From positions 1 through 36,225 of the forward strand of contig CAIQBY010000076.1 of NCBI GenBank assembly GCA_903870175.1: 36,225 nucleotides of DNA, in the 5' to 3' direction. This DNA is from an uncultured Bacteroidota bacterium (lineage in GTDB: Bacteria > Bacteroidota > Bacteroidia > 2-12-FULL-35-15). Positions 3,491 to 28,015 of this stretch are shown here, piece by piece (the first letter of the stretch is position 1; each line of letters begins with the position of its first letter). The translations under genes and the position numbers were made by a program. A model generated the notes under the pieces. The model was not told where the DNA came from, did not search any database, and worked only from the letters and a program-made list of their open reading frames with translations.

Positions 3491-6034
3491 ATGAAAAAAG
3501 CTACATTAATTATTGCCGGTATATTTGTCATTAGTTCTATATTTGCTCAGCGAACAAATGACAAGAAGAGTGAGTCGGGATTTGTTCAATGCTCTGAATT
3601 CCACGAGACAAAACCACTAAGAGAACTATTTCCTAACAGTGCTGAAGAAGAAAAAACAGCATTTGTAGAACGTGAAATAGAAGACAGGGATGGAAATATA
3701 CCTCAACAATTCCCAAAAACAGTTGAACACGATGGTCCTGTTTACGGTAATGATCCAACAACAATTCAATCAACTATGGGAAGCATTCACAACAGGGCAC
3801 CTATTCATAGCTGGGCAGGGCAGGCAGCCACAGGATTTTTTCCTTTAGATCCTTCAGGTGCAGTTGGTCCAAACCATTATGTTCAAATGATAAATGCGAC
3901 TACATTTAAAGTTTGGAACAAAACAGGAACAGCTTTATTAACTGGTACATTAGGAAATTTATGGTCGCCGGCAACCGCAAATGATGGTGATCCGGTAGTG
4001 CTTTATGACAAAGGAGCTGACCGTTGGTTTATGTCACAATTCGGGCAGACAGGAAACAGTATTTACATAGCAATATCAAAAACAGCTGACCCTACTGGAG
4101 CTTGGTACACCTATACATTTACTTCTCCAGTATTTCCTGATTACTTAAAATTTTCTGTTTGGCAGGATGGATACTATATGTGTTCTAACGCTCAAACAAG
4201 AGTATTTGCTTTTGAAAGAGCAAAAATGCTTATTGGTGACGCATCTGCAAAATCTGTTTATGCTTCATATACACAAAGCCCAACTAGCGGGTTCTTTTGC
4301 CCAATGCCGGCAGATGCAGGAGATGGAACATTGCCTCCGGCAGGAACAAAATTACCCTTCTTCGCTTACACAGATAATGGTTGGGGAGGATCAAATACTG
4401 ATGCAGTAAAAGTTTGGAATACCACAGTTACATGGGGCACAACCCCAACAATGACAGCTACTTTAAATGCTACTTTAGCAACTGCAGCCTTTGATGCATC
4501 ATACAATTCGAGCTGGAATGACGTTTCGCAACCTGGGACTACTCAAATGCTTGATGGAATTGGCGGTGTTTGTATGTTCAGAGCGCAGTATAAAGTATGG
4601 AGCACTTATAATTCAGTCGTGCTTAACTGGGCAGTAAAAATAAGTTCGACCCAACGGAGTATTAAATGGGTGGAATTACGCCAGAATTCATCAGGTACGT
4701 GGTCATTATATCAGGAGGGTATTTATACGCCTGATACCGATACCCGATGGATGGGAAGTATTGCAATGGATAATAATGGCGGGATTGCATTGTGTTATAT
4801 GAAATCAAATTCTTCAACAATTTATCCCGGATTATATTATACAGGCAGAAAGGCATGCGACCCACTTGGACAAATGACAATTGCTGAAACTCAAGTGGTA
4901 GCAGGTATCGCATCTCAAACAGGTGGTGTGAACCGAGATGGCGATTACTCTGAAACATGGCTTGATCCTGATGGTGTTACCTTTTGGCATACCGGCATGT
5001 ATATGGGAACAGGTGGCGCTCAAAAAACACAGGTATATTCTTTTACATTACCTCAATGTATAGTAAGTGCACCACCAGTAGCTGCTTTTTCTACTTCACA
5101 AACAACAATATGTACCAGCCAATCTGTTTCTTTTACTGATTTAAGTTCGAATCTTCCAACGTCTTGGTTATGGACTTTTGCCGGTGGAACTCCTGCGACT
5201 GACACCACTCAACTACCTACGGTTGTTTATAACTCTCCCGGAACATATCAAGTTAAACTTATTGCAACAAATTCTTATGGAAGTGGTGTAGATTCGGTAA
5301 CCAATTATATCACAGTAAATGCAGCACCGCCATCACCAACAGCAACCAGTAATTCTCCACTTTGTAACGGGCAAACTATTAATCTTTCTACTCCTACTGT
5401 TGCCGGTGCAACTTATACGTGGACAGGTCCAGTAAATTATTCCTCTACCGCTCAAAATGCTACCCGACCTGCAGCACCTGCCCTTTCAGGAACATACACA
5501 ATTACTCTAACAGAAGGTAGCTGTTCCAGTACAGGAACTGTATCCGTAGTTGTATATGCTAACCCTGCTGCACCGACAATAACAAATTCAGGTAATACAT
5601 TAACTTCGTCCGCTACTACAGGCAACCAATGGTATCTCAATGGTGTATTAATTTCCGGAGCTACCGGACGAACTTATACGTCTACTCAAAGTGGAGTATA
5701 TACTGATATTGTAACCGTTAACGGATGTTCTTCAACTGCTTCCAATTCAATAACCATTACTGGTATCGCAGAGTATTCAGAAGACAATTCTCTGGCTATT
5801 TATCCGAACCCTAATGAAGGTGCTTTTACAATTTCATTGCATTCAAATGTAAAAAGAACTTTCAAGGTTGAAATAGTAAATGAATTGGGACAATTAATTT
5901 TCACTCAGAATTTAAATGATGTTTATGGAGATTATACTCAACCTATTGATATTTCAAGGTTCGGAAAAGGTGTTTATATGTTTGTATTAACAGATGATAA
6001 ACACGAAACAGTGAAAAAGGTTATTGTTTATTAA
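3491..6034 (+). CDS. T9SS-exported PKD-domain surface protein (paralog 1)
   Basis: An 847-residue exported protein of unknown activity. It starts MKKATLIIAGIFVISSIFAQ, a clear signal peptide. Residues of about 20-525 form a large Trp/Tyr/Gly-rich region containing GAVGPNHYVQMINATTFKVW and DGDPVVLYDKGADRWFMSQF. The repeated short beta-rich segments suggest a propeller-like fold, but I do not recognise an enzyme family. A PKD domain follows at about 527-609 (SFTDLSSNLPTSWLWTFAGG), then Ig-like modules to about 755, including QWYLNGVLISGATGRTY. The last 80 residues (YPNPNEGAFTIS ... KKVIVY) are a type A T9SS sorting domain, so the protein should cross the outer membrane and be anchored or released. 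It is closely related to the next gene, with its own promoter and terminator, and the pair looks like a tandem duplication. Confidence 0.85.
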   Translation: MKKATLIIAGIFVISSIFAQRTNDKKSESGFVQCSEFHETKPLRELFPNSAEEEKTAFVEREIEDRDGNIPQQFPKTVEHDGPVYGNDPTTIQSTMGSIHNRAPIHSWAGQAATGFFPLDPSGAVGPNHYVQMINATTFKVWNKTGTALLTGTLGNLWSPATANDGDPVVLYDKGADRWFMSQFGQTGNSIYIAISKTADPTGAWYTYTFTSPVFPDYLKFSVWQDGYYMCSNAQTRVFAFERAKMLIGDASAKSVYASYTQSPTSGFFCPMPADAGDGTLPPAGTKLPFFAYTDNGWGGSNTDAVKVWNTTVTWGTTPTMTATLNATLATAAFDASYNSSWNDVSQPGTTQMLDGIGGVCMFRAQYKVWSTYNSVVLNWAVKISSTQRSIKWVELRQNSSGTWSLYQEGIYTPDTDTRWMGSIAMDNNGGIALCYMKSNSSTIYPGLYYTGRKACDPLGQMTIAETQVVAGIASQTGGVNRDGDYSETWLDPDGVTFWHTGMYMGTGGAQKTQVYSFTLPQCIVSAPPVAAFSTSQTTICTSQSVSFTDLSSNLPTSWLWTFAGGTPATDTTQLPTVVYNSPGTYQVKLIATNSYGSGVDSVTNYITVNAAPPSPTATSNSPLCNGQTINLSTPTVAGATYTWTGPVNYSSTAQNATRPAAPALSGTYTITLTEGSCSSTGTVSVVVYANPAAPTITNSGNTLTSSATTGNQWYLNGVLISGATGRTYTSTQSGVYTDIVTVNGCSSTASNSITITGIAEYSEDNSLAIYPNPNEGAFTISLHSNVKRTFKVEIVNELGQLIFTQNLNDVYGDYTQPIDISRFGKGVYMFVLTDDKHETVKKVIVY

Positions 6035-6398: not shown

Positions 6399-9281
6399 AT
6401 GAGAAAAAACACATTAATTATTGCAGGAATAATTGCAACGAATTTATTATTTGCACAACGCACCTCCAAACTTGAAGAGAAAACAAGTTTTGTTACATGT
6501 TCCGAATTTCATGTAACAAAACCTTTAAGCGAAATTTTTGCTAACAATCCATTAGAAGGAAATAATACATATCGTAAGCAGGAAAGTGAAGACCGAGAAA
6601 ATAACAGACCCCAGAAATTCCCATTGACTGTCGAAAAAGATGGCCCTGCTTATGGAAATGATCCTTCAACAATACAAACTACAGACGGTTTTATACATAA
6701 CAGAGCTCCATTACAAAGTTGGGCCGGGCAAACAGCTTCAGGTTTTACTCCATTAGATCCTTGCGGCGCAGCCGGACCTAATAACTATGTACAAATGATA
6801 AATGCAACCACATTTAAAGTGTATAGTAAAACAGGTACTGCCCAACTAACAGGTACTCTTGGTAATTTGTGGACGCCTCACCAAACATATAATGACGGTG
6901 ACCCTATTGTGCTTTACGATAAAGCTGCTGACAGATGGTTCTTCTCTCAATTTGGAGATAATGACGGTGCCGCAGGAAATTATGTTCACATTGCAATCTC
7001 ACAGACAGGTGACCCGACAGGTGCCTGGTACACTTATACATTTACCGCTCCTTTTTTTCCTGACTATTTGAAATTTTCTGTTTGGCAAGACGGGTATTAT
7101 ATGACTTGCAATTCCAATTCTGCCGGAGCTTCTCCAACAATATTCGTTTTTGAAAGAACTAAAATGCTTGCAGGTAATTCTGCTGCGAGAATGTTAACTA
7201 AAACGTATGCTCCTTCTTATAATTCAGGTTGGTTTTTTATTCCGTTAACTGCTGATGGAGGTGATGGGGCTTTGCCTGCTACCGGAGCACCTTGCCCTAT
7301 TTTCTCATATTCTGACAACGGATGGGGAAGTGGATATACTGACGCAATCAATGTTTTTCATATCGCTGTAAACTGGACTCCGACAACTCCGACTGCTACT
7401 GTTACTGCTGCCGGGACAATTGCAGCAGCAGCTTTTGATGCATCGTACGATTCAAACTGGAATGATGTTTCTCAACCTGGCACTACAGAAAAACTTGACG
7501 GAATTGGCGGAGCACTCATGTTCCGTGCCCAATATAAAATTTTCAGTGGATATAATTCAGTCGTGCTTTGCTGGGGAGTAAAAATAAGTTCAACTCAACG
7601 AGGAATTAAATGGTGCGAGCTGCGTCAAACAGGAGGAACGACTTCTTCATGGACAATGTATCAGGAAGGAATTTTTGCGCCAGCAACTGATAATCGTTGG
7701 ATGGGAAGTATTTCTCAAGATAATAATGGTTCTATAGCTCTTTGTTATTTAAGAGATAATGCAACTTCTATGTATCCTTCTTTGTATTATACCGGCAGAC
7801 GTTCTTGTGACCCGCTGGGAACTTTTACTGTCGCTGAAACATTAGTGAAAGCCGGTACAGCTTCTCAATCTACTTCAACAGGAAATCGTGATGGAGATTA
7901 CGCTGAAACTTGGCTTGACCCTGATGGGGTGACTTTCTGGAATACTGGTATGTATATTGGTTCCGGCGGAAGTCAGCAAACTCAGATTTATTCATTCCAA
8001 ATTGCTGCCTGTGCTGCTTCTGTGCCTCCTGTTGCTTCATTCACAGCAGCTTCCACATCAGTTTGTGCAGGTCAATCAATTGCATTTACAGATAACAGTA
8101 CCAATTCGCCAACAAGCTGGGCCTGGACATTTGCAGGACCTACAACTCTTACTTCAGCATCTCAAAGTCCTACTATGACTTTTGCGACAGCAGGAACTTA
8201 TAGTGTTACTCTTGTTGCTACAAATTCAGCAGGCAGTAATACTTCTGCAGTTACCAGCATTACTGTGAAGGCTATACCTGGGACACCAGCGCCTACTACC
8301 AATTCGCCGATATGCGCAGGTGCTACAATCAATTTAAATTCTACAGCAGTTACCGGTGCAACGTATGCATGGGCAGGACCAAGCACATATACTGCAACTA
8401 CTCAAAATGCAACACGGCCTACTGCTACTGCAGCAATGGCTGGCACTTATTCACTAACCGTTACAGTTAACGGCTGCACGTCTGTTGCCGGAACTTCTAC
8501 AGTAGTAGTAAATGCAAAACCTACAATTTCGAATACTACATTAACTCAAACCATATGCTCAGGTGCTACTGCATCTTTCATGGCTACATCAGCTACTACA
8601 GGTTCTACTTTTGCCTGGACAGCATCTGCTTCTGCAGGAACAGTTACAGGATGGACAGCGTCCGGAAGCGGCAATATATCCAATGTGTTGACTAATACAG
8701 GAACAACAAATGGAACTGTTACTTATGTGGTAACTCCTACAGGCCCTACTCCTACCAGCTGTGCAGGTACAGCATCCAATTTTGTAGTAACCGTGAAACC
8801 AACCCCTTCAACACCGGTTATCACTCAAAACGGAAACGTGCTTACCTCAAGTTCAGCAACCGGAAACCAGTGGTATCATAATGGAACGGCTATATCAGGC
8901 GCTACCGGGCAAACTTATACCGAGACAGCCAACGGAACTTATACTGATATTGTTACTACCAATGGTTGTTCGTCCACCGTATCCAACACTATAACTGTTA
9001 TAAATACCGGAATTAATGAATTAACTTTGAATAATTCATTGTCAATTTATCCAAATCCGAACAACGGAATATTTACTGTTTCCTTTGATGCCGCTTCAAA
9101 AACGAATTATAAAATTGAAATCACAAACGAAATAGGGCAATTGGTATTCAAACAGGCAATCAAAGATGCATCAGGCACATATTCTCAAACCATCGATATT
9201 TCAACGTATGGCAAAGGTATGTATCTGTTTACGCTTACCGATGATAAAAACCAATCCATCAAAAAAGTACTCGTATATTAA
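6399..9281 (+). CDS. T9SS-exported PKD-domain surface protein (paralog 2)
   Basis: A 960-residue paralog of the preceding gene product, sharing the signal peptide style (MRKNTLIIAGIIATNLLFAQ), the long N-terminal region (AAGPNNYVQMINATTFKVY; DGDPIVLYDKAADRWFFSQF) and the PKD domain at about 541-625 (SFTAASTSVCAGQSIAFTDN). It differs mainly by one additional Ig-like module (from about TISNTTLTQTICSGATASF through VVTPTGPTPTSCAGT), which accounts for most of the extra 113 residues. The C-terminus has the T9SS type A sorting domain (SIYPNPNNGIFTVSF ... KKVLVY). The substrate or partner is unknown. The same MRK/MKK-TLIIAGI start in both copies supports a tandem duplication followed by module gain or loss. 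It has its own terminator and a weak promoter, so the two genes appear separately transcribed. Confidence 0.85.
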   Translation: MRKNTLIIAGIIATNLLFAQRTSKLEEKTSFVTCSEFHVTKPLSEIFANNPLEGNNTYRKQESEDRENNRPQKFPLTVEKDGPAYGNDPSTIQTTDGFIHNRAPLQSWAGQTASGFTPLDPCGAAGPNNYVQMINATTFKVYSKTGTAQLTGTLGNLWTPHQTYNDGDPIVLYDKAADRWFFSQFGDNDGAAGNYVHIAISQTGDPTGAWYTYTFTAPFFPDYLKFSVWQDGYYMTCNSNSAGASPTIFVFERTKMLAGNSAARMLTKTYAPSYNSGWFFIPLTADGGDGALPATGAPCPIFSYSDNGWGSGYTDAINVFHIAVNWTPTTPTATVTAAGTIAAAAFDASYDSNWNDVSQPGTTEKLDGIGGALMFRAQYKIFSGYNSVVLCWGVKISSTQRGIKWCELRQTGGTTSSWTMYQEGIFAPATDNRWMGSISQDNNGSIALCYLRDNATSMYPSLYYTGRRSCDPLGTFTVAETLVKAGTASQSTSTGNRDGDYAETWLDPDGVTFWNTGMYIGSGGSQQTQIYSFQIAACAASVPPVASFTAASTSVCAGQSIAFTDNSTNSPTSWAWTFAGPTTLTSASQSPTMTFATAGTYSVTLVATNSAGSNTSAVTSITVKAIPGTPAPTTNSPICAGATINLNSTAVTGATYAWAGPSTYTATTQNATRPTATAAMAGTYSLTVTVNGCTSVAGTSTVVVNAKPTISNTTLTQTICSGATASFMATSATTGSTFAWTASASAGTVTGWTASGSGNISNVLTNTGTTNGTVTYVVTPTGPTPTSCAGTASNFVVTVKPTPSTPVITQNGNVLTSSSATGNQWYHNGTAISGATGQTYTETANGTYTDIVTTNGCSSTVSNTITVINTGINELTLNNSLSIYPNPNNGIFTVSFDAASKTNYKIEITNEIGQLVFKQAIKDASGTYSQTIDISTYGKGMYLFTLTDDKNQSIKKVLVY

Positions 9282-9308
9282 AGACTATAGTTTTTGTTTG
9301 TAAAAAAG

Positions 9309-9344
9309 TTCCGTTTCGCTTTAATCGAAACGGAATTTTTTTTT
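9309..9344 (+). terminator. Intrinsic terminator after the second secreted-protein gene
   Basis: TTCCGTTTCG (9309-9318) pairs perfectly with CGAAACGGAA (9326-9335) around a 7-nt loop, followed by nine T residues. It lies 27 bp after the stop codon. Confidence 0.85.
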
Positions 9345-9381
9345 CGCTCCTCCATTCCTCTTCCTAATTATGTGAATTGCT

Positions 9382-9405
9382 TTGTTTAAATATGGTTTTA
9401 AACAA
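9382..9405. repeat. Perfect 9-bp inverted repeat flanking array 2
   Basis: TTGTTTAAA (9382-9390) and TTTAAACAA (9397-9405) are perfect arms with a 6-nt spacer. There is no T-tract of terminator type. It may be a protein-binding site or an end of the repeat-bearing insertion. Confidence 0.5.
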
Positions 9406-9510
9406 TTGTTGATGCGCCATGGTGTTGGAAGAAGGGAATGGAGTGAAGTGTTTTTTGTCGTTTATAGAGAGGCAGTTAAAATGAAAAAAGGGAATTTTAA
9501 CAAATGCCTC

Positions 9511-9781
9511 GCGATGGTGCGCGAGAGCAACGCGATGGCAAAAAACGATGCGCGATGGTCCGCGAGAAGATCGCGATGACGAGTTTGTCTCATGCGATGA
9601 TGCGCAAGAGCAACGCGATGATAAAAAATGGCGCGCGATGGTTCGCGAGAGCATCGCGATGGTGAGTTTGCCTCGTGCGATGATGCGCGAGAGCAACGCG
9701 ACGGTGAGAATGGGTGACGCGATGGTGCGCGAGAGAGAAGCGATGGTGCGAAAAGGTGATGCGATGAGAAAATTTCAGCTT
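9511..9781. repeat. 21-bp degenerate tandem array 2, about 13 units
   Basis: Units begin with GCGATG (one GCGACG) at 9511, 9532, 9552, 9573, 9594, 9615, 9635, 9656, 9677, 9698, 9719, 9740 and 9761. All steps are 21 bp except two of 20 bp. The best unit is GCGATGGTGCGCGAGAGCAAC. Alternate units are more alike, giving a 41-42-bp higher-order period. Cores are near-palindromes around CGCG (for example CATCGCGATG at 9652-9661). Local GC is far above the neighbours. The array crosses several overlapping open frames on both strands. The 20-bp steps change frame, so I treat it as non-coding. The flanks, 9406-9510 and 9782-9966, hold nothing else I can name. Confidence 0.85.
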
Positions 9782-9966
9782 CGGCTGCCAGAAATGCAGG
9801 GTAAGTTTTGTAAAATTGAGAGAGGAGAATATAATTTATCGAGCTTGTATATTGTTCTTAGACACCTTGCTTAGTAAATTAGTATCCATTATATATCCGA
9901 ACCCTACTTAATTTCATTACATATTTCCAGAATACTATAACAGGCGTCCAAATAATTACCTCGACT

Positions 9967-10002
9967 TTTGATGAACAATAAATCAATTAAATTCTATATT
10001 TG
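9967..10002 (+). promoter_or_regulatory. Promoter candidate for the YHYH-MbnP-MbnH operon
   Basis: TTTG (9967-9970) and TATATTTG (9995-10002), a perfect TAnnTTTG, are separated by 24 nt, slightly longer than usual. The -7 element ends 21 nt before the ATG at 10024. No second promoter is evident before the next two genes, which are closely packed. Confidence 0.45.
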
Positions 10003-10023
10003 TAACACTATAAATTAAACCCT

Positions 10024-11241
10024 ATGAAAAAACTATTTGTTATTTGCAGTGCCGCATTATCAATTAATATAGCATCAGCTCAGGGTCCCGAAGTTACTTC
10101 GTGGATACAAAACACAACTGCTACCAATCCTTCTTACCCTTCTCTTGTCTCTAATTGCCAGTTGGTGCAGTATTCGGCTACGGAAGTATATGTAAGCTGC
10201 ACCTGCATTCCGGGTTATGCAATCGGTCCGTGGACAGGCAATCCGAATACACCGGCAAATCAAAACTTCGTGTTTAAGTTTACACGTTCTCCTCAGCAGA
10301 ACACCGGAACAGCTACTGCAATTGGACTTGGGCATATAGGTGTATGGAAAAACGGAGTAAGTGTTTTTAACGTTTCCGATGCAATGAGCTATAATAATGC
10401 CGGAGTCTGGAACCGAAATGCTTATTTCTGGGAAGGTCCAGGGTTTGATCTTTGCTTAGGACATCCTCAGCAACAGGGCGAATATCATCATCACGTAAGC
10501 CCAACCTGTTTGTACGACCAAACTGACAGTATACATCATTCGCCTGTTATCGGCTATGCTTTTGACGGATTTCCTATTTATGGTGCTTATGCTTACAGCA
10601 ACCCGACAGATATTACAAGTCCATTGAAAAGAATGAAATCAAGTTATGTGGATACAACAACTACAACTCGCGGAGGCGGCACCGGACCTATTGTAAGCAG
10701 TACTTACCCAGCAGGTTGTTTTATTGAAGACTTCAAATATGTTGCAGGAAGTGGAGATTTGGATGCCCGCAATGGCAGATACTGCATCACTCCTGAATAT
10801 CCAGCAGGAACGTATGCTTATTTTGTTACTCTCGATAATAACTTGAACCCAGCTTTCCCCTATACTTTTTATGGTTCTTATTATGGAGTAGTGCAAACAG
10901 GAAATACCGGTCCAAGTGGCGGACATGTTACCATTACTGAAACAACAACTGTTTATTCATCAGTAGGCGCAGGCATTAACGAAGCAAGCAAAGATATTAC
11001 ATTTGAATTTCTTCCAAATCCTGTTGTTGATTATGCTTATATTTATTTCACTCCCGAAAGCAGGAATAATATTATCGGCAGCTTGTATAACTCAACAGGG
11101 CAGCTTGTTCAGACAATAGAAAATATGCAGCCGAGTATTTCTTATGCTTTAGATATGACAAAATATCCCGAAGGAATTTACTTTTTGAATTTAGTTTCAG
11201 GTGATAAGAAAGTAGTTCAGAAGATAGTGAAATCAAAATAG
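10024..11241 (+). CDS. T9SS-sorted YHYH domain protein
   Basis: A 405-residue exported protein. The signal peptide MKKLFVICSAALSINIASAQ is followed by a YHYH domain (a family named for its conserved motif; biochemical role unsettled). Its hallmark is CLGHPQQQGEYHHHVSPTC near residues 144-160, followed by IGYAFDGFPIYGAYAY. The clustered His residues, with nearby Cys and Asp, suggest a metal site; that is inference. The C-terminus (FLPNPVVDYAYIYF ... KIVKSK) is a T9SS sorting domain, so the protein should end up at the cell surface. It is the first gene of an apparent operon, 18 bp ahead of the MbnP-like gene and co-directional with the di-heme peroxidase. That setting hints at a role in copper or other metal handling. 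Domain call firm, function open. Confidence 0.85.
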   Translation: MKKLFVICSAALSINIASAQGPEVTSWIQNTTATNPSYPSLVSNCQLVQYSATEVYVSCTCIPGYAIGPWTGNPNTPANQNFVFKFTRSPQQNTGTATAIGLGHIGVWKNGVSVFNVSDAMSYNNAGVWNRNAYFWEGPGFDLCLGHPQQQGEYHHHVSPTCLYDQTDSIHHSPVIGYAFDGFPIYGAYAYSNPTDITSPLKRMKSSYVDTTTTTRGGGTGPIVSSTYPAGCFIEDFKYVAGSGDLDARNGRYCITPEYPAGTYAYFVTLDNNLNPAFPYTFYGSYYGVVQTGNTGPSGGHVTITETTTVYSSVGAGINEASKDITFEFLPNPVVDYAYIYFTPESRNNIIGSLYNSTGQLVQTIENMQPSISYALDMTKYPEGIYFLNLVSGDKKVVQKIVKSK

Positions 11242-11259
11242 ATTATTGAAATTACATAT

Positions 11260-12009
11260 TTGAAAAAGATCTTTAATATTATCTTATACATGGCAACTAT
11301 TTTGGTTGCCATGTCTTTTTCCATTAATACGAAGGCAAACAAAGGCAAGCTGATAATTGATTTTAATAATTATGTGGGAAATGAAATATTAAAACTCGAT
11401 TCTGCTGTTTATAAAAATGAAGCGGGACAATCTTTTTCAGTTACTAATTTCAAATATTATGTTGGCAATTTTCATTTGAGAAAAGCAGACGGAACGGAAT
11501 ATATTTCTTCGGATTATTATTTAATTAAGGAAGATGAACAGCAAACAAAACAAATTATGTTGAATGATATTCCGGAAGGTAATTATGTTTCCTGTACTTT
11601 TACGTTAGGAGTTGACAGTGCGCATAATTGCAGTGGCGCACAATCAGGAGCATTGGACCCTGCCAATGGAATGTTCTGGGCCTGGAATACAGGATATATT
11701 TTTATGAAACTCGAAGGTAAATCTCCTTCATCTAATTTATCCGGACATACTTTTGAGTTTCATATCGGCGGATATAAATATCCAAACAATTGTATTCGAG
11801 AAATAAATTTAAAAACAAATAATCTGATTATCTCTTCTGATAAAACATCTTCCATAGAAATAAAAACGGATGCCGAAGAAGTAATGAAAACTCCTGTAAC
11901 TATTGATTTATCAAAGTTACCATCCGTTACCGATTCTCGCAACGCAACTATTATTGCAAATAATTATATGGATATGTTCAGCGTCCTGAAAATTAATAAT
12001 GAGAAGTAA
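11260..12009 (+). CDS. MbnP-like periplasmic protein (partner of di-heme enzyme)
   Basis: A 249-residue exported protein matching the MbnP family as I recall it: KGKLIIDFNNYVGNEILKLD, FSVTNFKYYVGNFHL, LGVDSAHNCSGAQSGALDP and FWAWNTGYIFMKLEG near residues 137-151, then FEFHIGGYKY. In studied MbnP proteins a Trp is oxidised to kynurenine by the neighbouring di-heme enzyme MbnH and helps form a copper site; the FWAW tryptophans are the obvious candidates here. The start is a TTG at 11260 (MKKIFNIILYMATILV), chosen because it restores a full signal peptide; the in-frame ATG at 11290 would remove its basic head. The gene overlaps the peroxidase gene by 11 bp, so translation is probably coupled. 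No methanobactin precursor gene is seen. Confidence 0.8.
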   Translation: MKKIFNIILYMATILVAMSFSINTKANKGKLIIDFNNYVGNEILKLDSAVYKNEAGQSFSVTNFKYYVGNFHLRKADGTEYISSDYYLIKEDEQQTKQIMLNDIPEGNYVSCTFTLGVDSAHNCSGAQSGALDPANGMFWAWNTGYIFMKLEGKSPSSNLSGHTFEFHIGGYKYPNNCIREINLKTNNLIISSDKTSSIEIKTDAEEVMKTPVTIDLSKLPSVTDSRNATIIANNYMDMFSVLKINNEK

Positions 12010-13048
12010 ATTAGTTTATATAATCCTGTTTTTATTCCTGTCGGTTTTAATTTTCAATAGTTTTATTGACGACAATCCATATTTCAAAATAACAAGTGAT
12101 GATGTTATACTAACTATTCCTAAAGGGTTTCCGAAACCAAAATATAATTTCAAAAATAATACAATTACTCCTGAGAAATTTGTGCTGGGAAGAAAGCTGT
12201 TTTACGACCCTATACTTTCAAAAGACAGTTCAATGAGTTGTGCTTCCTGCCATCAGCGCATTGCTGCTTTTGCGCATATCGACCACGCATTGAGTCATGG
12301 AATAAATGGTTTGATAGGAAAAAGAAATGTGATGCCACTTCAAAATCTTATCTGGAAAGACGCATATATGTGGGATGGTGGCGTAAATAACCTGGAAGTA
12401 CAACCGATAAATCCGATAACAAATGCGGTTGAAATGAATGAAACTTTATCAAATGTGGTAAATAAATTAAAACATAATAAAGTGTATGCTGAAGAATTCA
12501 AAAAAGCATTTAATGATACGATTATTAATTCGGAACGGTTATTAAAAACATTGGCACAGTTTACAGGGCTAATGATTTCGAGCAATTCGAGGTATGATAA
12601 ATTTGTGGAAGGAACAATACAGTTTTCGGACACAGAAATGAACGGCTTAAAAATATTCAAAACTAAATGCGCGAATTGTCATAAAGGAACATTATTTACG
12701 GATAATAGTTATCGTAACAATGGAATAAAGCCAGATACTTCCCTTAAAGATAAAGGACGGGAAACGATTACCAATAACCCCGAAGACAATAATACGTTTC
12801 AGGTTCCATCGCTCCGTAATGTTGAAATGACCTACCCTTACATGCACGACGGGCGGTTCCGAAATTTACAGCAGGTATTAAATCATTATTCCAATCCAAA
12901 AAACTTTGATAAGAATTATGATTTAAGTTTGAACAAAATTGGAGTATTATCCGAGCAGGAAAAAGGAGATGTGATTGCTTTTCTGAAAACACTTACTGAT
13001 AAAGTGTTTTTATACGACCGCAGATTTGCCGACCCGAATATGAAATGA
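11999..13048 (+). CDS. Di-heme cytochrome c peroxidase, MbnH/MauG-like
   Basis: A 349-residue protein with an N-terminal hydrophobic export segment (LVYIILFLFLSVLIF) and two haem c attachment sites: CASCH at residues 81-85 and CANCHKG starting at 224. Other family marks are FVLGRKLFYDPILSKDSSMS, MWDGGVNNLEVQPINPI and the C-terminal YMHDGRFRNLQQVLNHY. This is the bacterial cytochrome c peroxidase/MauG fold. MauG and MbnH use a bis-haem high-valent state to oxidise a protein substrate, whereas classical CcpA reduces hydrogen peroxide. The 11-bp overlap with the mbnP-like gene favours the MbnH role over simple peroxide detoxification. The opposing phospholipase-like gene ends only 7 bp downstream. 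Confidence 0.85.
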   Translation: MRSKLVYIILFLFLSVLIFNSFIDDNPYFKITSDDVILTIPKGFPKPKYNFKNNTITPEKFVLGRKLFYDPILSKDSSMSCASCHQRIAAFAHIDHALSHGINGLIGKRNVMPLQNLIWKDAYMWDGGVNNLEVQPINPITNAVEMNETLSNVVNKLKHNKVYAEEFKKAFNDTIINSERLLKTLAQFTGLMISSNSRYDKFVEGTIQFSDTEMNGLKIFKTKCANCHKGTLFTDNSYRNNGIKPDTSLKDKGRETITNNPEDNNTFQVPSLRNVEMTYPYMHDGRFRNLQQVLNHYSNPKNFDKNYDLSLNKIGVLSEQEKGDVIAFLKTLTDKVFLYDRRFADPNMK

Positions 13049-13055
13049 TTTCATT

Positions 13056-14039
13056 TTAATCGTTGTGTCCTTTCACTTCTTTGTTAGTATCGTTTTTTAA
13101 TTGTTCTTCCGCTTTATTAAACTGTTTCAATGAATCGGAAATTTCCTTGTTATCGAACTTATCCAGATTAGGTTTTCCCGCATTCACCCAGGCAGTGTAC
13201 CACATGCTTCCCACTGTAAGAATGGCAGCTCGCATCCTGCGTTCCACCATTCCATTAAGCATATTATTATAATCGGTTGTGTATTCCACCGAATAAACTT
13301 TAATTAATGTTTTGCCACGATTTTCAAAACTGTATTTTTTGTCCGGAGAGTATTTAGCATTTAATTTCTCTTCGAATTTCAATACTGAATCCAAAGCTGC
13401 ATTGCTTGCTTTTACTGTACTCCATGCCTTTTCAATTGGCTTATCAATATATTTTGCCTTGCCAACCCAATAATCATAACCTTCGGATTTAAGTTCGGGA
13501 ATGCGCGATTCCCAGAATCCATGTATGCCTTTTTGATTGGTAAACTGCCCGTTATAATTGGATGTGGTATGCAACGGAACATGCGAATCAGCAATGTAAT
13601 GACCTAAATCGGCAGAATAATGCAAAATCAAATCCATGTTTTCTGTTCGGAAAGCCTCCGTTAACCGACTCATCATTTTTTCGATATACCAGGGAACAAT
13701 GCCATAGGCTTTTAAGGTGTCTTCCGAATATTTATTTACGGCATCCTTCCATTTATGAGGGACGGAATCATAAGCATAATTTCCATAACGATCCATGTCA
13801 ATATAATGTCTGGGCGCTTCATCCGGATTGGCGTACCGCCTTTTGTCAGGGTCGACTGCATGCTCTGAAATATATTCAATGTGATGTTTATAAAAACCAA
13901 TCATTCCATCCGGCAAGGTAAATACTGCCATGCGATTGATTTTTTTATGTGCAAAGAAACCCCAGGAATAAGCTTCCTGATTATTTACAACAAACAAAAA
14001 GATTGAAAATAATATTAAGGCAAGGCAGAATTTTTTCAT
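13056..14039 (-). CDS. S1-P1 nuclease / zinc-dependent phospholipase C superfamily protein (copy 1)
   Basis: A 327-residue exported protein. After a signal peptide (MKKFCLALILFSIFLFVV) the mature part starts near SWGFFAHKKINRMA. In the S1-P1/phospholipase C superfamily the N-terminal Trp and following His bind the trinuclear zinc cluster. Further ligand motifs are RHYIDMDRYG and HYSADLGHYIADSHVPLH, followed by GIHGFWESR. Substrate (nucleic acid or phospholipid) cannot be read from sequence. Its ATG overlaps the comB-like stop by one base (ATGA), so the two are translationally linked. The C-terminal 40 residues are charged and low in complexity. A second copy lies at 33005-33991. Confidence 0.8.
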   Translation of the reverse strand: MKKFCLALILFSIFLFVVNNQEAYSWGFFAHKKINRMAVFTLPDGMIGFYKHHIEYISEHAVDPDKRRYANPDEAPRHYIDMDRYGNYAYDSVPHKWKDAVNKYSEDTLKAYGIVPWYIEKMMSRLTEAFRTENMDLILHYSADLGHYIADSHVPLHTTSNYNGQFTNQKGIHGFWESRIPELKSEGYDYWVGKAKYIDKPIEKAWSTVKASNAALDSVLKFEEKLNAKYSPDKKYSFENRGKTLIKVYSVEYTTDYNNMLNGMVERRMRAAILTVGSMWYTAWVNAGKPNLDKFDNKEISDSLKQFNKAEEQLKNDTNKEVKGHND

Positions 14040-14758
14040 CAGGATAATTTCACAAGATACTTTCCTTCCAATACGGGAATAATATCTGTTTTATCCAACG
14101 CGAGACAATATTTTATATCATGCTTCAAACCAAGCGCAGCAAGTCTTTCGGCATGTGATGAATTTCTAATAAACTTATATGGATTAGTTTCTGCTTGCTG
14201 ATAAAGAAAAGAAACAGACAAGGCAGCATCACCGTAATTAAACTTTGAATTTTTCAGCAATCGCTGCGACACTGCACCAGCGAACAATGTATCTTCCAAA
14301 TTGAATTTATTTTTCCACCCTGAACATAAAAGAATAATGTTTTTATTCTGTTCGCTAAGCCAAGCACACAATGCAGTAATATTTGTAAAAGCCCCAATAA
14401 CAACCTGCGACGCATTTCTTGCAACTTCAATTGCCTGCGTTCCGTTGGTCGTAGAAATCACAATGGTTTGTCCTTTGATTTTATCAGTCATGTAACTGTA
14501 AGGTGAGTTGCCAAAATCAAAGCCTTCCAATGCTATTCCATTTCTTTCGGCACCTACCAAAAACCCTTGCTTTTTATATTCAGCAGCCTCTTCAAGAGAT
14601 GCGACAGGAATCATTTTTTCAACACCATTATGAAATGCAGTACACATAGCAGATGTTGCACGCAAAATATCAATAACAACTACAATGCAATCGTCTCTAT
14701 GATATACAGGATATAGGGAAGGGGAAAAGCAGACATCTATTGTTAATTTTTTTTTCAT
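14039..14758 (-). CDS. comB: 2-phosphosulfolactate phosphatase (ComB family)
   Basis: A 239-residue cytoplasmic protein with the ComB signature series: IDVCFSPSLYPVYHRDDC, VVIDILRATSAMCTAFHNG, VGAERNGIALEGFDFGNSP, TIVISTTNGTQAI and LCSGWKNKFNLEDTLFAGA. The characterised enzyme removes phosphate from 2-phosphosulfolactate to give sulfolactate. No comA or comC homologue lies nearby, so the pathway (coenzyme M-type or another sulfonate) is not supported by context, and the in vivo substrate may differ. Gene order on the minus strand is gcvT, comB, S1-P1-like gene; the stop overlaps the next start by one base. The length is normal for the family. Confidence 0.85.
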   Translation of the reverse strand: MKKKLTIDVCFSPSLYPVYHRDDCIVVVIDILRATSAMCTAFHNGVEKMIPVASLEEAAEYKKQGFLVGAERNGIALEGFDFGNSPYSYMTDKIKGQTIVISTTNGTQAIEVARNASQVVIGAFTNITALCAWLSEQNKNIILLCSGWKNKFNLEDTLFAGAVSQRLLKNSKFNYGDAALSVSFLYQQAETNPYKFIRNSSHAERLAALGLKHDIKYCLALDKTDIIPVLEGKYLVKLS

Positions 14759-14810
14759 ACTTAATTCGCTTTAATTAAAATCCCTCACACTAACCTAAAA
14801 GGAAAATAAT

Positions 14811-15914
14811 TTAAGCCTTATAAAACGGAATCTTTACAACCTTTGCTTTAATAGCTCTATCACGAATGATAATAAATATTTCGGAATCAGTTTTAGAAAA
14901 TGCAGTTGGAACATATCCCATTCCTATTGCTTTATTTAATGAAGGAGATTGAGTACCTGAAGTAACTTTTCCAATAATATTTCCTGCAGCATCAGCAATA
15001 GGGTAATCGTGACGGGGAATTCCTCTGTCAACCATTTCGAAGCCAACCAGTTTTTTTGAAACACCTTTTTCTTTTTGTTCCAATAAAGCAGCTTTGTTTG
15101 TAAATTCTTTCGTAAATTTAGTTATCCATCCCAATCCTGCTTCTATAGGAGATGTTGTGTCATCAATGTCATTACCATATAAACAGAATCCCATTTCCAA
15201 TCGTAAAGTATCACGTGCGCCCAAGCCAATAGGTTTAATACCATATTCAGCACCCGCCTCAAATATTGCCTTCCACATTTTATCAGCTACTTCATTCTCG
15301 AAATACACTTCAAACCCGCCTGCACCGGTATATCCAGTATTGGAAACAACAACATTTTCTACTCCGTTAAAAGTTCCTTTTTTGAAAGCGTAATATGGTA
15401 TCTCCGAAAGATTAATATCAGTAAGTTTTTGCAAAGCAAGAATCGCTTTTGGTCCCTGCACTGCAAGCAAAGAAGTTTTTTCAGAGATATTATGCATCTC
15501 CACATTCTTTGTATTATACTTTTGAATCCAGTTCCAGTCTTTATCAATGTTTGAAGCGTTAACAACAAGCATATATGTTTTTTCATCAATACGATAAACC
15601 AATAAATCATCCACTATCCCGCCTTTATCATTTGGCAAACATGAATATTGAATCTTCCCATCAACCAATACAGAAGCATCATTGGAAGTAACACGCTGAA
15701 TTAAATCCAGTGCATTTTCACCTTTCAGAATAAATTCTCCCATGTGCGAAACATCGAAAACACCCATTGCATTTCTTACAGTAAGGTGCTCATCATTTAA
15801 TCCGCTATACGACACAGGCATTAAGTATCCTGCGAAAGGTACCATTTTAGCTCCAAGTGAAATGTGTGTATTTACAAGTGCTACATTCTTTAATTCAGTT
15901 GCTGTACTTTCCAT
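14811..15914 (-). CDS. gcvT: Aminomethyltransferase, glycine cleavage T protein
   Basis: A 367-residue cytoplasmic protein. It transfers the methylene group from the aminomethyl-lipoyl H protein to tetrahydrofolate and releases ammonia. Family motifs are visible along the length: [89 protein letters not shown] and GLGWITKF, with a C-terminal [20 protein letters not shown]. The Asp in GARD matches the conserved residue near the folate site. gcvH and gcvP are not in the window. It has its own -7 element and lies 52 bp ahead of comB, so cotranscription is possible. Confidence 0.95.
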
Positions 15915-24592: not shown

Positions 24593-27500
24593 GTGGATTC
24601 TAATGGCAGACCAACAGGAACAGCCCTTGCAACAGCACCTATTCAAAATTTCTACGCATGGAGTCCTGCATTTTTTGATGTGAGTTTTTCTCCGGCGGTG
24701 GCAGTAAATAGTAATTTTGCTTTAGTAGTAGAAATAGTAAATGTTCCGGGATGGGGACGTGACTTTGCTCTTCGCTATACAGGCAACGGTGAAGGCCTTG
24801 GAGAAGATTTAGCTTCATTAGCAGGAACTTCCACAGGATTCAATTGGGCAAGTGCGATGAGTGCATTTATCAAGGATGGCGATTTTTATATTTGCCCTAG
24901 AATGATAAACTTTAATACACCAATGTTTTCTCTTACATCAACATGTGTAAATACTGGAGCCTCATTGTCATTTATAAACAGTACACAAATGACTACAGAC
25001 AGTATGTTCAACAAAATTACGCGACAGGGATACTCAGGTTCGAACTCCTTATATAGCTGGGACTTTGGTGATGGAACTACTGTTTCTCATTTAGCAAATC
25101 CTACTCATGCTTACGCAACTGCTGGTATGTATACAATAACTCTAACTTCTATGATTGAAGGATGGAGTGGAAATTGTATCAAGACATATTCCAAAGTTGT
25201 TTCTGTTGGTCTTGCAGTTAATGCAACAGCAATAACTAATGTAACCTGCAATGGTTCAAATAATGGAAGTATCATTGCTGTTGGCACTGGCGGCGCAACT
25301 CCTTACACCTATAGTATTAATGGTGACAGTTATCAATCTTCAGCAAATTTCACTGGATTGATTGCTCAGGTATATAATTTGTATGTGAAAGATGCTCATG
25401 GATGTATTCAAACAACAAGTTTTATAATTAATCAACCTGTTGTTATTCATTTCACTACTGCATCTTCTACTAATGCAACTTGTGGAAACGCAGATGGTGG
25501 AATCTTAGTTGCTTCTTCCGGTGGCGTACCTCCTATGCAATACAAATGTAATTCAGGAACTTATCAATCAAGCGGAACATTCTCAGGATTAACTGCAGGT
25601 GCATATACAATTACTGCCAAAGATGCAAATGGTTGTACTTATTCTACAATAGTTGTGGTAAGTAATTCAAGCGGACCTGCTTTTAGTGTTACTAATTCAA
25701 CAAATGTAAGTTGTAACGGAGGAAACGATGGAAGTATCTCATTAACTTCTTCAGGAGGAACAGGAACTGTTCAATATAGTATAAATGGAGGAACAACCTA
25801 TCAGGCAAGCGGAACTTTCACAAATGTGACTGCAGGTACATATACTGCAATTGTAAAAGATGCTGCAGGATGTACTGATATAAGAATATTTCATATAACT
25901 GAACCTCAAACAATACGATTAACAGCTTCAACAAAAGACCTTACTTGCAATGGAAGTGCTAATGGAGAAATTAATGTAACCACAACAACAGGCGGTACTG
26001 GTTCTGTAGTGTACAGCCTAGATAATATCAGTTATCAGTCAGGAACAAATTTCCTTGGCTTAACTGCCGGAACATATACTGTATATGCAAGAGATATTGT
26101 AGGATGTGTAAGTAACATTTTAGCAACTTTATATCAACCGACTTCAGTATCTGCAACTGTAACTCCAACTAGTGCAGCTTGTAATGGAAATCAGGATGGT
26201 ACCTTAACAATCACAGGCAGTGGCGGAACATCAGGATATGAATATGGAATCGGTACTGATGGTGAATACCAAAGTACCGGTATCTTTAGCAATTTAGCCG
26301 CAGGCACTTATCCTTTGGTTGTAATAGACGCAAATGGATGTATCTTCAAAACAACTGGAACTATCACTCAGCCTTCTGTTATAGTGCCTGTTGCTACATC
26401 AACAAATTCAACTTGCAGTAATTCAAATGGAGGAATTATGGTTACGGCAACTGGTGGTTCCGGTTCCGGTTATACTTATAGTATAAATGGCGGTACTTTC
26501 GTAGCCGGTACTTTTTCATCATTAGCTGCTAGTACTTATGTGATAACAGCACAGGATGGAACAGGATGTACTTCTACAATTAATGCAAGTGTATTCGATT
26601 CAAACGGTCCTTCTATTCTTTCAAGCAATCATACTAATGTTAATTGTAATGGAGGAAGTGATGGAACTATTACTGTAGGCACTGTTTCTGGTGGTACTGG
26701 TACTCTTCAATATTCCATCAATGGTACTGCTTATCAAATATCTCCTGTATTCAGCGGTTTACCTGCCGGTGTTTACAATGTAACTGTAAAAGATGCTGTA
26801 GGATGCATCGGTAATGTTACTGAAACGCTTACAGAACCAAATGCTTTTGTAATCACTACAAATGTTGTAAATGCAACTTGTAACGCAAGCAATACCGGTT
26901 CAGTAGCATTGCAAGTTGGCGGCGGTGCCGGAACTTTAGCTTACAGCATTAATGGCGGAAGCACATATCAGTCGAGCAGTACTTTCTCTAATTTAGGTGC
27001 AGGCACTTATGGTGTTTTGGTTAAGGATGCAGGTGGTTGTTTTGGTTATGTATTAGCAACAGTTACTGAGCCTCTAGTAATTTCATTGTACTGTAATACT
27101 TTAAATATTAACTGTCATGGAGCAAATGACGGATCAATTTCGGTAACAGCTTCAGGAGGAACAGGTGCTTTGAAATACAGTATAGATGGAGCAACTTATC
27201 AGACACCAAATTTATTTTCAAATCTATTTGGTGGTTCTTATATAGTATATGTTAAAGATGCAAGCGGATGTATTAAAACAATTCCTGTAAACCTTTATGA
27301 ACCTACTGCTTTAAGTGTAACAGCTAACGCATCAGACGTGACATGTTACGGTGGGAATAACGGAGCAATTGCATTATCTGTGACTGGAGGAACATCTAAT
27401 TATTATTTCAGCTGGTCAAATGAAGTAACTACTCAAAACAATTTTAATCTTACTGCAGGTACATACACTGTAGTTGTGCATGATGGAAACAATTGTATTT

Positions 27501-28015
27501 CTACCACTAATTATACAATTGGACAACCTTCAAGTCCGGTGATAGTTAATGGAACTGTTGTTAATTCAACAGGAACAAATAACGGAGCCATTAATATTGC
27601 TGTAACAGGTGGTGGAGGAACATATACTTTCCTTTGGTCAAATAACGCAACAACAGAAAATGTTTCAGGTTTAGCTCCAGGTGTATATTCAGTAATTGTT
27701 ACTGATGCTAACGGATGCTCCGCATCTTCAACCTTCCTGATTACTAACACAGCAGGAATTGCAACTTATGATGCTTTAAGTGATCAGGTATCAGTTTATC
27801 CAAACCCTGCTAATGATTACGTAATAGTAGAAGTGGATGGCTTCAGAATTGATAAAGTTGAAGTTTATGATGTGCTTGGTCAAGTTGCATTCAAAGGTGA
27901 ATTTAATAATTCTAAAGTTGAAATCAACACAGCAGGTTTAAATCAAGGAGTTTACTTTGTTAAAGTTTTAGTGGATGAGAAACTTATCACTAAAAAGGTG
28001 AGAATCATTAAATAG
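24593..28015 (+). CDS. Large SprB-repeat surface protein with T9SS sorting domain (5' end frameshifted)
   Basis: A 1140-residue open frame from GTG 24593. The true gene very probably starts at 24327 and has lost its frame near 24450; no ATG exists in this frame upstream of 24593, and the frame itself is open back to 24440. After about 120 residues comes a PKD domain (YSWDFGDGTTVSHLANPTHA), then eleven SprB-type repeats of about 80 residues, each opening like NVTCNGSNNGSI and closing like VKDAHGC. SprB is the mobile gliding adhesin of Flavobacterium, and similar repeats occur in many Bacteroidota adhesins. The C-terminus (SVYPNPANDYVIVEV ... TKKVRIIK) is a T9SS sorting domain. It is probably a long surface fibre for adhesion. 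No motility genes are nearby. Confidence 0.85.
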   Translation: MDSNGRPTGTALATAPIQNFYAWSPAFFDVSFSPAVAVNSNFALVVEIVNVPGWGRDFALRYTGNGEGLGEDLASLAGTSTGFNWASAMSAFIKDGDFYICPRMINFNTPMFSLTSTCVNTGASLSFINSTQMTTDSMFNKITRQGYSGSNSLYSWDFGDGTTVSHLANPTHAYATAGMYTITLTSMIEGWSGNCIKTYSKVVSVGLAVNATAITNVTCNGSNNGSIIAVGTGGATPYTYSINGDSYQSSANFTGLIAQVYNLYVKDAHGCIQTTSFIINQPVVIHFTTASSTNATCGNADGGILVASSGGVPPMQYKCNSGTYQSSGTFSGLTAGAYTITAKDANGCTYSTIVVVSNSSGPAFSVTNSTNVSCNGGNDGSISLTSSGGTGTVQYSINGGTTYQASGTFTNVTAGTYTAIVKDAAGCTDIRIFHITEPQTIRLTASTKDLTCNGSANGEINVTTTTGGTGSVVYSLDNISYQSGTNFLGLTAGTYTVYARDIVGCVSNILATLYQPTSVSATVTPTSAACNGNQDGTLTITGSGGTSGYEYGIGTDGEYQSTGIFSNLAAGTYPLVVIDANGCIFKTTGTITQPSVIVPVATSTNSTCSNSNGGIMVTATGGSGSGYTYSINGGTFVAGTFSSLAASTYVITAQDGTGCTSTINASVFDSNGPSILSSNHTNVNCNGGSDGTITVGTVSGGTGTLQYSINGTAYQISPVFSGLPAGVYNVTVKDAVGCIGNVTETLTEPNAFVITTNVVNATCNASNTGSVALQVGGGAGTLAYSINGGSTYQSSSTFSNLGAGTYGVLVKDAGGCFGYVLATVTEPLVISLYCNTLNINCHGANDGSISVTASGGTGALKYSIDGATYQTPNLFSNLFGGSYIVYVKDASGCIKTIPVNLYEPTALSVTANASDVTCYGGNNGAIALSVTGGTSNYYFSWSNEVTTQNNFNLTAGTYTVVVHDGNNCISTTNYTIGQPSSPVIVNGTVVNSTGTNNGAINIAVTGGGGTYTFLWSNNATTENVSGLAPGVYSVIVTDANGCSASSTFLITNTAGIATYDALSDQVSVYPNPANDYVIVEVDGFRIDKVEVYDVLGQVAFKGEFNNSKVEINTAGLNQGVYFVKVLVDEKLITKKVRIIK

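Follow-up and report, generated by a model that had tools for sequence, protein, structure and literature searches.

The 36,225-nt stretch of DNA analysed here (the window, along the whole of which coordinates are numbered; contig CAIQBY010000076.1 of an uncultured Bacteroidota bacterium) carries three open reading frames (ORFs) on the forward strand, encoding a YHYH-domain protein (yhyh, 10024–11241), an MbnP-domain protein (mbnP, 11260–12009) and an MbnH-like di-heme protein (mbnH, 11999–13048). Across Bacteroidota, YHYH is inherited together with one particular clade of MbnP-MbnH pairs (MbnPH), and the reading that we favour, at a probability of about 0.45, is that the three proteins form a dedicated metalloprotein module in which MbnH modifies MbnP and MbnP serves YHYH, likely with copper. 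The layout is compact, with a gap of 18 bp between yhyh and mbnP and an overlap of 11 bp between mbnP and mbnH, exactly as in a first-pass annotation made from the sequence, and all three products score above the cut-offs of their Pfam families. The mbnP gene begins with a TTG codon, as do its nearest relatives. YHYH proteins are widespread, with a function that is only predicted in the literature found. The question of the role of MbnP and MbnH outside methanotrophs dates from their description as 'mysterious partners' (PMC3621798). Joint inheritance supplies each of them with a testable partner and probably ties the orphan YHYH family to the handling of metal, with copper the likely one. No description of a YHYH-MbnP-MbnH module was found in the literature searched.

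MbnP-MbnH pairs are common across Bacteroidota. Among 36 genomes of the window genus YHYH is present in 23 and MbnP in 29, and the three genes are found together at most YHYH loci, with these defined by the YHYH domain alone and not by the sorting tail of the type IX secretion system (T9SS). Two arrangements occur, YHYH-MbnP-MbnH as in the window (order A) and MbnP-MbnH-YHYH (order B). In an even sample of the phylum (392 Bacteroidota genomes), 27 genomes have a full YHYH and 15 of those also have MbnP. The two genes lie within 3.5 kb of each other on one strand in eight of these 15, against an expectation of about 0.002 per genome, and their adjacency is therefore not due to chance. A tree of 145 MbnH sequences places the YHYH-linked MbnH in one clade of 34, except for a single sequence from a second neighbouring pair in L205. 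Enlarged with further loci the clade holds 57 MbnH, 54 of them beside YHYH, and the adjacency that the first-pass annotation had proposed to tabulate is thus conserved across Bacteroidota. The further loci were gathered with YHYH as the query and are for that reason biased towards linkage, while the first two sets were searched with both families. Both are quick trees, with a support of 91 for the YHYH-linked clade, within which orders A and B make up two subclades with one exception. Outside this clade, in a member of the Phycisphaeraceae (L359, Planctomycetota), YHYH is followed directly by a 632-aa ORF (8328–10223) in which an MbnP part with the motif HWSWQGGY and MbnH are fused into one chain.

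The association is not symmetrical. No genome with MbnPH of the 57-member clade was found to lack YHYH; the three members that do not lie beside it (L182, L214, and L215) belong to G136, G179, and G227, genomes that carry YHYH elsewhere. YHYH itself, on the other hand, is without a nearby MbnH in 61 of 117 distinct cases, and the YHYH tree requires many changes of label and has orders A and B mixed. Contig ends may hide some of the links, and YHYH may have other sources of metal. Taken together, a YHYH that is often alone and an MbnPH clade that is always accompanied by YHYH suggest that MbnPH acts for YHYH, which turns the question of association into one of direction.

The MbnP protein (249 aa, with a signal peptide) scores 178.3 bits against PF20243, where the cut-off is 27. 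Its predicted model (predicted local distance difference test, 91.5) is matched to 7l6g, a crystal structure of MbnP from Methylosinus, with Z 18.0 and a root-mean-square deviation of 2.8 over 211 residues, and the next match in the same fold search reaches only Z 6.0, while a single-sequence search of the PDB gave no match. A profile of the family aligns weakly with 7l6g (E 0.065) and brings W140, W142, and H168 onto the same residues. The two tryptophans form a WxW motif (11677–11685) within FWAWNTGY and are the candidate site of oxidation to kynurenine, while H168 (11761–11763), invariant in the family alignment and aligned with a His of 7l6g, is a candidate copper ligand. The second protein of the operon, proposed to be MbnP-like on account of the FWAWNTGY motif, which is exact, hence belongs to the MbnP family in the wide sense. 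The best-ranked NCBIfam models are the equivalogs TIGR04052 for MbnP (59.3 bits, cut-off 140) and TIGR04039 for MbnH (203.8 bits, cut-off 362.85), and scores below both cut-offs indicate distant members of the methanobactin-type kind. In characterised MbnH/MbnP pairs the di-heme enzyme oxidises a Trp of MbnP to kynurenine and so creates a copper site; wide-sense family membership would predict the same Trp oxidation and copper binding for the window pair. With the pair of Methylosinus trichosporium (7l6g and the di-heme enzyme 6e1c) it shares the MbnP fold, the WxW motif and His, the Tyr of the di-heme partner and the adjacency of the genes, and it differs in its scores below the two equivalog cut-offs, in the lack of methanobactin genes, in the link to a T9SS-exported YHYH and in a hairpin at the yhyh-mbnP junction. 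No match to PF05114 (the MbnB family) was found in the host genome, which is 96.6% complete, and the earlier remark that methanobactin genes are missing holds to that extent. Pairs without methanobactin genes were already known (PMC3621798), however, and what stands as new in the first-pass annotation is the link to YHYH.

Retention of the MbnP residues follows the presence of MbnH. Among Bacteroidota MbnP adjoins MbnH in 133 of 142 cases, and the second Trp of WxW is kept in 124 of these 133 against 2/9 of the MbnP without an adjacent MbnH; the corresponding figures are 132/133 and 7/9 for the first Trp and 129/133 and 3/9 for the conserved His. L122 and L124, in which WxW is kept without an adjacent MbnH, have MbnP of the window type, and their genomes have MbnH beside YHYH elsewhere. 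The host genome also encodes two similar MbnP-like lipoproteins without WxW and without MbnH (L002, 1180–1965 on contig C56; L003, 515–1294 on C227), each with an outer-membrane-like protein on one side and a small CxxxCH lipoprotein on the other.

The likely location of the proteins bears on the direction of metal transfer. A T9SS tail is present in none of 33 MbnP, and by a crude rule a lipobox occurs in only 3/53 MbnP and 7/61 MbnH of the YHYH-linked group, against 68/107 and 53/113 in pairs without YHYH. The N-termini of both proteins are hydrophobic in the linked group. MbnP probably resides in the periplasm, then, and YHYH outside the cell, and copper passing from YHYH to MbnP would need a way across the outer membrane. 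It was this route that the first-pass annotation had put forward, with a surface YHYH that captures copper and hands it inward to MbnP. The export tail and the conserved His/Asp set of YHYH agree with such a collector, as does the precedent of CorA and MopE of methanotrophs, surface or secreted copper proteins that carry kynurenine and have a co-transcribed di-heme partner (PMC3912023). CorA-CorB and MopE-SACCP indeed resemble the window operon, each being an operon in which a copper-protein candidate is joined by a MauG-like di-heme enzyme. MbnP gave no phmmer match to CorA or MopE, and neither is among the fold matches listed. Against such a route, in CorA and MopE it is the kynurenine protein itself that is found at the surface, whereas here the exported protein is YHYH and MbnP has no sorting tail. 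Furthermore, no outer-membrane transporter is conserved near YHYH-MbnPH loci, and the clade MbnPH depends on YHYH more than the reverse. Inward transfer from YHYH to MbnP consequently appears unlikely. T9SS cargo passes through the periplasm first, which would allow YHYH to be loaded before its export.

The YHYH protein (405 aa) scores 173.4 bits against PF14240, for which the cut-off is 25, with the domain at residues 84–274 (10273–10845). Its invariant or near-invariant residues are D142, H147, Y154, H155, H157, H172, and D181, and W27 and W129 are near-invariant as well. It had been described as rich in His, which is not the case; there are 8 His among 405 residues, and the conserved set consists of H147, H155, H157, and H172. 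The C-terminus (residues 331–402, 11014–11229) matches the sorting domain PF18962 with 39.1 bits and T9SS tails in fold searches with Z of about 10. Such a tail is present in 36 of 37 YHYH, and SprA of the T9SS is encoded in the host genome, all in accordance with the export that had been proposed for YHYH. In a fold search with the whole protein the PDB matches listed are dominated by the sorting tail, and in the viral library the matches are annotated YHYH proteins. The domain and its conserved His/Asp set are common to the window YHYH and the phage versions of PF14240, but the latter belong to phage tails while the former is exported by the T9SS and linked to MbnPH. A published prediction makes the phage-tail domain a zinc-dependent hydrolase that has three His and one Asp (PMC7824862). 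Extended to the window, YHYH would be a secreted hydrolase dependent on zinc or another metal, and mbnP and mbnH would be metal genes of the envelope that share its regulation but take no direct part in its function. In favour of this explanation, roughly every second YHYH in the sample lacks MbnPH, and genes of the sulfatase and arylsulfotransferase families are found next to YHYH. Co-regulation alone nevertheless accounts neither for the constant YHYH company of one MbnPH clade nor for the recurrence of the linkage around the MbnP-MbnH fusion of Planctomycetota, and we regard a bystander role of MbnPH as improbable.

MbnH (349 aa) scores 176 bits against CCP_MauG (PF03150), and its two heme motifs, CASCH at residue 81 (12239–12253) and CANCH at residue 224 (12668–12682), are exactly where the first-pass annotation put them. 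Against TIGR03791 (MauG) it scores 183 bits, below the cut-off of 444. Its best sequence match in the PDB is the peroxidase 1iqc, and it is the sole CCP_MauG gene found in the host genome, both of which would be expected of an ordinary di-heme cytochrome c peroxidase acting against H2O2, with the pairing to MbnP incidental. In the sequence alignment, however, Tyr297 (12887–12889) stands in place of the Met of 1iqc, at a position that we take to be that of the axial heme ligand. In MauG the axial ligand is a Tyr. A Tyr is present at this position in 133/142 Bacteroidota MbnH (the remainder have Phe or a gap), and this Tyr, the adjacency of MbnP, the retention of WxW in step with MbnH and the MbnH family as best NCBIfam model make a mere peroxidase very improbable. 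Clustering with CcpA, which the first-pass annotation had named as a refuting outcome, did not occur. Like MauG with methylamine dehydrogenase, MbnH would be a di-heme enzyme that oxidises a protein Trp, although the substrate family and the product differ. That YHYH itself is the substrate of MbnH, with a Trp of YHYH oxidised, is hardly credible despite two loci (L106 and L107) with MbnH beside YHYH and no MbnP and despite the near-invariant W27 and W129, as the genomes of both loci carry MbnP elsewhere and the tryptophans are equally conserved in YHYH without MbnH (W27 in 58/61, W129 in 61/61).

A covarying hairpin is located at the yhyh-mbnP junction (11288–11314, forward strand), 46 bases after the yhyh stop codon and within the 5' end of mbnP. 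It has a stem of 12 pairs followed by CTTTTT, and the folding energy of the region has z −4.3 relative to shuffles. Over 17 aligned sequences 93.6% of the cells in the stem are paired against 88.7% in shuffles, and double-sided changes are seen in 11 cells against 3.2; 0/500 shuffles were as high in either respect, fractions which are not probabilities as the sequences are related. Shifting the partner by 1–3 columns lowers the pairing to below 46%. The residues encoded over the stem vary alongside the pairing (M-A-T..V-A-M, M-A-A..A-A-M, V-A-S..L-A-M), and protein constraint alone would not require residue changes in step with stem pairing. A covariance model recovers the hairpin at the same place in L284 (E 2e-8) and L286 (E 2e-7), both outside the training set, and gave no other strong match among the loci searched. 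At 4247–4271 in L118 it has a weaker one (E 0.005), located at the 5' end of an mbnH whose pair is without YHYH. The hairpin is found in 19 distinct loci of order A; at some further loci of this order an unrelated hairpin occupies the junction, and the two orphan mbnP lack the covarying one. It has no match in Rfam and is an unreported structured element. A genome-wide operator was considered and rejected, since 19 of 21 matches to the perfect form among the loci scanned are at the 5' end of mbnP; a relaxed pattern has many one-mismatch matches in relatives, among the matches listed. Our first guess at its function would be a partial terminator or attenuator, but several members have only a weak U-run, so that the hairpin may act in translation or on the stability of the RNA.

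Ahead of the operon, relatives carry genes for an extracytoplasmic function (ECF) sigma factor, a small anti-sigma-like protein and a PF13801-like protein, in some cases with a CotH-type T9SS protein between these genes and the operon. The third protein is a CnrX/ZraP-like sensor with His, His, and Cys as invariant residues, and the order of the three genes is that of CnrYXH-type modules, from which they differ in that the sensor scores 26.4 bits against PF13801 (Metal_resist), below the cut-off of 29.2, and in that the module is missing beside the window operon; the host genome has a sigma/sensor pair on another contig. ECF and sensor genes are found at 16/58 loci with YHYH and MbnH, or at 15/55 distinct ones when presumed duplicate records (L282 = L115, L346 = L097, L357 = L099) are removed, as compared with 1/102 loci with MbnPH only, where the exception (L215) belongs to the same MbnH clade. 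For the sensor the enrichment has a Fisher p of 2e-8, in which duplicates and relatedness are still included. An ECF sigma factor with a sensor of this kind ahead of the operon suggests that in relatives it is probably metal-responsive.

Some YHYH loci also have genes for redox enzymes. A T9SS multicopper oxidase and a redoxin are found beside YHYH in L104, L251, L301, and L331, and such an oxidase in L345; elsewhere, MbnPH and AhpC/TSA genes have been reported from copper operons (PMC9426467). More generally, in L104, L251, L301, L331, L345, and L350 YHYH is clustered with genes for T9SS multicopper oxidases, for redoxins or for proteins of the sulfatase family, and some of these clusters have no MbnPH; arylsulfotransferase-family genes lie beside YHYH in L341, L344, L255, and L260 (Planctomycetota and Bacteroidota; in L341 and L260 they are assigned by position or clustering only).

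The preferred reading of a dedicated metalloprotein module can be put as a series of steps. MbnH, as a di-heme enzyme of the MauG type, would oxidise a Trp of the WxW motif of MbnP in the periplasm, probably to kynurenine, and the modified Trp would form a copper site with H168. MbnP would then put copper into the His/Asp site of YHYH, most likely ahead of T9SS export, and the junction hairpin probably sets the amount of MbnP and MbnH relative to YHYH. Several observations weigh against this reading. YHYH is so often without MbnPH that it cannot always require it; a published prediction for its domain is a zinc-dependent hydrolase, while copper in YHYH is our own proposal; both MbnPH equivalog cut-offs are missed; the sensor family falls short of its Pfam cut-off and the regulatory genes do not lie beside the window operon; and the multicopper oxidase is confined to five loci. 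It is tempting to go further and regard MbnP as a kynurenine-bearing periplasmic chaperone, made by MbnH, that loads the exported YHYH with copper before secretion, with the conserved RNA hairpin fixing how much cargo is made relative to chaperone. This more specific version is tentative and on balance doubtful; if true, it would provide the YHYH family with a metal and a route of maturation, and would identify a physiological client of MbnPH.

Several other features surround the operon. The DNA upstream of yhyh has some similarity to the closest relative only, and contains a tandem array of units of about 42 bp (core GCGATGGTGCGCGAGAGCAACGCGATGG) at 9505–9767, the strict core of which occurs nowhere else in the genome. 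Further upstream two related PKD-domain T9SS proteins are encoded in tandem (3491–6034 and 6399–9281). On the other side the operon is faced by convergent genes on the reverse strand (13056–15914) for an S1/P1 nuclease-like protein, a member of the 2-phosphosulfolactate phosphatase family and GcvT, and their position beside the operon is kept in about 10 relatives. A SprB-repeat T9SS protein with 11 repeat matches is encoded at 24593–28015.

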